From the NCBI GenBank assembly GCA_016192455.1, contig JACPUC010000004.1, positions 1-62,663 of the forward strand: a stretch of 62,663 nt of DNA, in the 5' to 3' direction. The translations under genes were made by a program, and so were the position numbers. Below the pieces are notes generated by a model. That model had not been told where the DNA came from. It saw nothing but the letters and a program-made list of their open reading frames with translations, and did not search any database. How positions within the stretch are numbered: the stretch's first letter is position 1; each line of letters starts with the position of its first letter. This document shows positions 28,664-29,845 of the stretch, piece by piece. The DNA comes from Candidatus Tectimicrobiota bacterium (GTDB taxonomy: Bacteria > JACPUC01).

Positions 28664-29845
28664 TCACGCCGCGGTGAGGACCGGCGGCGCCGCCGAGGTC
28701 TGGTAGCTCTCCAGCAGCTCGGTAATGAGCGGGTGCTCGCCGCAGATGGGGCAGTCGCGGTCGCGGCGCAGCTTCACCTCGCGGAAGCTCATGTCGAGCG
28801 AGCTGTAAATGAGCAAGCGGCCGATGAGCGGATCGCCCTTGCCAAGGATGAGCTTCACGGCTTCGGTGGCTTGCAGCGTGCCGATCAAGCCTGGGAGGAC
28901 CCCCAGGACGCCTGCCTCGCTTCAGTTGGGGACCAGCCCCGCCGGCGGCGGCGCCGGGAAGAGGCAGCGATAGCACGGCCCGCGACCGGGCGCGAAGACC
29001 GTTGCCTGGCCTTCGAACTGAAAGATGCTGCCGTGCACCACCGGCGTTCCCGTCAGCACCGAGGCGTCGTTCACCAGGTAGCGGGTGGGGAAGTTGTCGC
29101 AGCCGTCCACGACCAGGTCGTACTGCTTGAAGAGCTCGATGGCGTTCGCCTCGGTGAGGTGCTCGGGGTAGCTGATGACCTGCACGTCCGGGTTGAGGTC
29201 CGTGATGACCTGCCGGGCGATCTCCACCTTCGGCTTGCCGATGACCTTGGTGTTGTACATGATCTGCCGCTGCAGGTTGCTGCTGTCGACCACATCGGCG
29301 TCCATGATCCCCATGGTGCCCACACCGGCGGCCGCCAGGTAGTACGCGGCGGGCGTGCCCAGGCCACCCATCCCCACCAGCAGCACCTTGGCGTCCAAGA
29401 GCCTCTTCTGCCCCGCCTCGCCCACCTCGTTCAGGAGGAGGTGGCGGCTGTAGCGCACCACCTGCTCGTCGGTGAATTTGCGCGGCTTCATCGTGGGGTA
29501 GCCGGCGTTCTTCCAGCGACCAAACCCTCCCTCCATCGAGAGGACGTTGGCGTACCCCATGTCTTTCAACGATTTGGCCGCCAGGGCCGAACGGAAACCA
29601 CCAGCGCAGTAGGTGACGATGGTGGCATCGTGGTCCGCTTGCAGGGAGCCGATCTTCGACTCCAGCACGCCGCGGCCGACGTACTGCGCCCCGTCGATGT
29701 AGCCGTCGCGATACTCATCGGCCTCGCGCACATCGATGAGCGTGAAGCGCTCGCCGGCGTCAAGCATCCGCTTCACTTGATCGACCGTCACCTCACCGAT
29801 CTGCTGCTTGGCTTCCTTCACGAGATCCTGGAAACTCTTGGCCAT
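28664..29845 (-). CDS. Rhodanese-MoeB/ThiF fusion, probable selenoprotein (in-frame TGA at conserved Cys)
   Basis: 393 residues if the TGA at 28924-28922 (codon 308) is read through. Residues ~17-105 form a rhodanese domain with active-site Cys in IVTYCAGGFRSALAAKSLKD. Residues ~130-393 form a MoeB/ThiF E1-like adenylyltransferase: VLLVGMGGLGTPAAYYLAAA (ATP site), SSNLQRQIMYNTKVIGKPK, DLVVDGCDNFPTRYLVND, zinc pairs CYRC and CPIC, and the C-terminus IGTLQATEAVKLILGKG. The TGA takes the place of the conserved Cys before SEAGVLGV, the residue that takes part in sulfur/ubiquitin-like carrier chemistry in ThiF/MOCS3. Read to the TGA only, the protein would lose its second zinc pair. A hairpin follows it. 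The rhodanese is N-terminal, the reverse of MoeZ/MOCS3. Confidence 0.8.
28890..28907 (-). promoter_or_regulatory. Putative bacterial SECIS hairpin
   Basis: 14 nt after the TGA comes CCUGGG-GGUCCU-CCCAGG: a perfect 6-bp stem whose loop begins GGU, like the GGU-type loop of the E. coli fdhF SECIS. The distance from UGA to loop (20 nt) is within the known bacterial range. The hairpin lies inside the coding sequence, as bacterial SECIS elements do. Confidence 0.6.

Follow-up and report, generated by a model that had tools for sequence, protein, structure and literature searches.

Members of the MoeB family that contain selenocysteine (Sec) have been predicted from the Sargasso Sea data in 2005 (11 sequences; PMC1088965) and from the GOS data in 2008 (19 sequences; PMC2398784), and the available text of two reviews carries them as a predicted family (PMC9312934, PMC13188914); the original prediction was therefore right in stating that earlier metagenome studies had predicted Sec proteins similar to MoeB. 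As far as the available portions of these reports go, the metagenomic proteins resemble the gene analyzed here in belonging to the MoeB/ThiF family, in possessing one predicted Sec that corresponds to a conserved Cys, and in the SECIS-like stem downstream of the UGA. They are described at the family level (COG0476 / pfam05237), and the available text, on which this comparison relies rather than on alignment figures, mentions neither an N-terminal rhodanese domain nor a second Sec. The domain order and length of our protein are the same as in the rhodanese-MoeB family NF006444 / PRK08762 (molybdopterin-synthase adenylyltransferase MoeB), whose Cys-containing relatives carry Cys where our protein has Sec. 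Since NF006444 is an NCBIfam equivalog, the architecture is not in itself unusual, although the original prediction held that the N-terminal rhodanese makes this an unusual enzyme. Uba4 / MOCS3 proteins also combine the adenylation domain and a rhodanese in one chain and their crossover-loop Cys202 (numbering from PMC7527816) aligns with Sec308 of our protein; however, their rhodanese domain is C-terminal rather than N-terminal, they use Cys instead of Sec, and their carrier is Urm1. E. coli MoeB and ThiF adenylate MoaD or ThiS in a homologous, ATP-dependent reaction, and their Cys187 and Cys184, respectively (numbering from PMC13139853), align with Sec308, but they lack the rhodanese fusion and have Cys in place of Sec. 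Thus, the Sec MoeB kind is already known, and the gene described below adds a member in its rhodanese-fused branch.

The window (the whole 62,663-nt stretch of DNA that was analyzed) corresponds to contig C4 of an assembly that is 88% complete and totals 4.46 Mb in 31 contigs. None of the 58 relative genomes used for comparison belongs to the same phylum, all of them sharing only the domain rank with it, and therefore the lineage from which the window derives is poorly sampled.

The gene occupies positions 28664..29845 on the minus strand, ends with a TGA stop codon (28664-28666, minus strand), and encodes a protein of 393 aa if its only internal stop, the TGA at 28924-28922 in the frame 29845-28664 (-), is read as Sec. 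The read-through product matches NF006444 at residues 5-380 (score: 528.9 bits; curated cut-off: 449 bits), in agreement with the claim that the MoeB/ThiF frame is open but for one TGA. It consists of an N-terminal rhodanese domain (residues 20-114, 29504..29788, minus strand; PF00581, 70.6 bits) with the catalytic Cys80 (TGC, 29606..29608, minus strand), and a ThiF/MoeB adenylation domain (residues 132-366, 28748..29452, minus strand; PF00899, 279 bits). The TGA codon (28922..28924, minus strand; residue 308) is positioned between the two zinc-binding CxxC pairs, C291/C294 and C365/C368, both of which, like C80, are present in the translation. The second pair, C365-x-x-C368 (28742..28753, minus strand), is located beyond the TGA, so it is encoded by read-through only and would be lost otherwise; this is the normal C-terminus that the original prediction had noticed. 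Alignments with PDB sequences place residue 308 on the Cys of ThiF (ERNC-RTAGV; Cys184), MoeB (LTC-VEAGV; Cys187) and Uba4 (TSC-GEAG; Cys202 in CtUba4), i.e. on the conserved Cys that the TGA had been proposed to replace.

A first scan of genome contigs identified 80 relatives, with TGA at the Sec codon in 21, TGC or TGT in 59, and no other codon. An extended set, to which relatives from searches of Planctomycetota (the phylum of L033) and of the phylum of L004 were added, comprises 132 rhodanese-MoeB and MoeB homologues, of which 39 are distinct TGA genes and 93 have TGC or TGT; the pairing of Sec and Cys is exact, and neither TAA nor TAG was seen at this site among the 132. The TGA genes come from records named Nitrospinota, Tectomicrobia/Entotheonella, Methylomirabilota, Poribacteria, Planctomycetota and Deltaproteobacteria, while a search of the phylum of another relative, L011, for further members returned only the genome of L011 itself. 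Flags of internal stops in two non-fused MoeB matches (TGA in L110, TAG in L117) were examined as candidates and dismissed, as they are not at the Sec site, which is a Cys codon in both. The window derives from a draft assembly, in which TGC or TGT could have been misread as TGA; yet the same TGA recurs in 38 other genes from independent assemblies of several phyla, in genomes that possess the Sec machinery, and because of this recurrence a sequencing or assembly error is so unlikely that it may be practically disregarded.

In the tree of 85 sequences, the 24 TGA genes all lie to the same side of one branch, which has a support of 56/83, and in the tree of 132 sequences, built with the Sec column masked, the number of changes between Sec and Cys is at least 6 on the best tree and 3 on well-supported branches. 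SelA was found in 35 of the 36 genomes with a TGA gene that were checked, the single miss being a 1.3 Mb MAG; its presence nonetheless discriminates only weakly between the two kinds of genomes, because 47 of the 61 checked genomes with a Cys gene have it too. Analysis of the neighborhoods of the TGA genes revealed no conserved partner except among close relatives. Some of the TGA genomes contain a second, rhodanese-free MoeB without an internal stop (G032:C357:957-1727 and G039:C102:4210-4980), hence a non-Sec paralogue can coexist with the TGA gene.

Purifying selection on the codons past the TGA is the same as on those that precede it: comparison of 14 TGA gene pairs gave omega values of 0.03-0.34 on the 3' side and 0.04-0.25 on the 5' side. 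The window protein is likewise 62-69% identical to its TGA relatives past the TGA, compared with 63-70% in the part of the ThiF domain that precedes it, and the 39 TGA genes have no other internal stop upstream of the Sec site, with the exception of a TGA at codon 80 in four of them. These data bear on the possibility that the TGA is a true stop and that the gene is a pseudogene, or a natural truncation that ends past the first zinc CxxC. TGA is a stop by default, and elsewhere in the window genome it is used as an ordinary one, including at the end of the rhodanese-MoeB gene itself. Against this, the codon falls exactly on the Cys position in 39 distinct genes and is never replaced there by TAA or TAG, the downstream part shows no drift, the truncated product would be devoid of the second zinc pair, and the gene is the only one of the ThiF family found in its genome, all of which makes a true stop highly improbable.

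The window genome contains all four genes for Sec synthesis and insertion that the original prediction had proposed to look for. selA and selB adjoin on contig C23 and have reading frames without internal TGA; a tRNA-Sec gene is present on contig C8 (75.5 bits; called by ARAGORN as tRNA-SeC (tca)); and selD is located on contig C3 (190907-191827), where the frame of its own active site, GUAAK, reads through a TGA, so that by its sequence motif SelD is itself classified as a selenoprotein. TGA is known to encode Trp or Gly in some lineages, and a reassignment of this kind would also keep the frame open. However, the window gene terminates with TGA, selA and selB contain none internally, the two internal TGA codons found are both at Sec-type sites (the MoeB Cys position and the GUAAK motif of SelD), the homologues have Cys rather than Trp or Gly at the site, and a tRNA-Sec gene is present, which leaves reassignment a very small probability. 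Truncation, pseudogene formation, base-call error and reassignment were thus all rejected on the recurrence of the TGA, the conservation and the Sec machinery. Given an intact fusion with UGA at the position of the crossover-loop nucleophile, a complete Sec machinery and selection past the UGA, we regard it as very probable, as judged from the sequences, that the window gene encodes a selenoprotein E1-like enzyme, which supports the original prediction.

The SECIS-like stem-loop CCUGGG-GGUCCU-CCCAGG is present where it had been reported (28890..28907, minus strand), starting 14 nt 3' of the TGA, i.e. at a suitable SECIS distance, and has a G near the start of its small apical loop, but taken alone it carries no evidence. 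In the window gene it is no better than chance, whether judged by dinucleotide shuffles (z = 0.20) or by synonymous shuffles (z = 0.15, p = 0.53); sequences that encode the protein motif VLGVLPG are prone to form such a hairpin, which accounts for this result. A search of the window against Rfam gave no match. The fold being average among the shuffles, we rejected the hairpin as a stand-alone proof of Sec. As VLGVLPG favors the hairpin in any gene, the codon choice was compared between the TGA and the Cys genes. A stem of at least 5 pairs occurs in 24/24 TGA genes vs 14.8 expected from the codon usage of each gene (P = 5e-5), whereas the corresponding numbers for the Cys genes are 36/61 and 35.1; in the extended set, a stem of at least 6 pairs at the SECIS distance is found in 39/39 TGA genes vs 36/93 Cys genes. 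In nearly all cases the choice of Leu-Pro codons in the TGA genes keeps a CCC run facing GGG. These statistics rest on few independent events, because the TGA genes for the most part group together in the tree, and only three pairs provide well-supported independent contrasts of Sec and Cys. Hence, the predicted SECIS-like element is convincing as a property of the group only.

In four of the TGA genes the codon of the rhodanese catalytic Cys is also TGA (L004:1454-1456, L033:2738-2740, L051:2738-2740 and L054:443-445), the first being from a groundwater deltaproteobacterial MAG and the other three from Planctomycetota. We propose that these four are putative double selenoproteins, with a Sec rhodanese and a Sec MoeB in one chain, as chance would hardly explain why a second in-frame stop coincides exactly with the remaining catalytic Cys in each of two separate groups. 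The hairpins 3' of the rhodanese TGA are not significantly stable in the four cases (z from -1.4 to +0.7). In five other Sec-MoeB fusions, all from Planctomycetota (L055, L056, L143, L145 and L151), the rhodanese Cys is replaced by Asp (GAC), and therefore the sulfur would come from elsewhere or the domain would have another role. The accessible text of the literature we searched contained no report of a Sec rhodanese and a Sec MoeB in one chain, nor a description of TGA (four relatives) or Asp (five) at the rhodanese site of Sec-MoeB proteins; a 2026 review, in the part available, lists MoeB with one Sec and Sec-containing rhodanese proteins as separate families (PMC13188914).

As to the mechanism, the UGA would be decoded by SelB and Sec-tRNA, assisted by the hairpin that lies shortly 3' of it, and the ThiF/MoeB domain would adenylate the C-terminal Gly-Gly of a sulfur carrier of the MoaD, ThiS or CysO type. 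Sec308 would then act as the crossover-loop nucleophile, which may either keep the carrier bound in an acyl intermediate or resolve acyl-disulfide and oxidized intermediates, as does Cys202 of Uba4, and the sulfur for the thiocarboxylate of the carrier would be delivered by a persulfide on Cys80 of the rhodanese domain. Published data on the homologous Cys differ: Cys184 of ThiF and Cys187 of MoeB are said to form no thioesters (PMC13139853), whereas Cys202 of Uba4 is reported to form a thioester and to resolve oxidized intermediates, its mutants retain adenylation and the binding of Urm1, and it guards against self-conjugation in oxidative stress (PMC7527816). An explanation that accepts the Sec and disputes only its chemistry, assigning it a protective or redox-resolving role instead of that of an acyl-forming nucleophile, would fit the ThiF and MoeB data as well as the behavior of the Uba4 mutants; it is at odds with the thioester reported for Uba4 Cys202 and with the strict retention of Sec or Cys at the site in 132/132 genes, and we consider it possible, if rather doubtful.

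Five candidate carriers of the ThiS/MoaD type, each of which ends or nearly ends in GG, were found in the window genome (L162-L166). One is a neighbor of moaE and one of thiG; one, of the CysO type, is positioned between cysteine-synthase-like and threonine-synthase-like genes; one adjoins genes for a ferredoxin and an aldehyde-oxidoreductase-like protein; and there is one further carrier (the neighbors were named from sequence by eye, not by profile search). The profile search with PF00899 found only one ThiF-family match in this genome, namely the window gene, although a second E1-like gene could be absent from the assembly, since the latter is 88% complete. Because no other ThiF-family protein was found, the window enzyme probably serves several carriers, and the selenoenzyme may feed several sulfur pathways in its host.

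For the Sec MoeB proteins, which have remained a prediction for some twenty years, this locus and its 38 relatives supply full genes, a domain architecture, a tree and hosts. The predicted Sec occupies the position of the crossover-loop nucleophile in an E1-like enzyme of sulfur transfer, which suggests a reason for the use of Sec. The members with two putative Sec residues, and those that combine Sec with the loss of the rhodanese Cys, provide natural variation that could serve to tell acyl transfer from protection against oxidation, a point on which the papers on ThiF/MoeB (PMC13139853) and Uba4 (PMC7527816) differ. More broadly, we tentatively suggest, as a proposition that is quite possible although short of probable, that the rhodanese-MoeB selenoproteins may form a multi-phylum branch with Sec at one or both of the sulfur-relay sites, and that in hosts of the window type, in which no other ThiF-family enzyme was found, the supply of thiamine, of the molybdenum/tungsten cofactor and of sulfur through the CysO route would be dependent on selenium.
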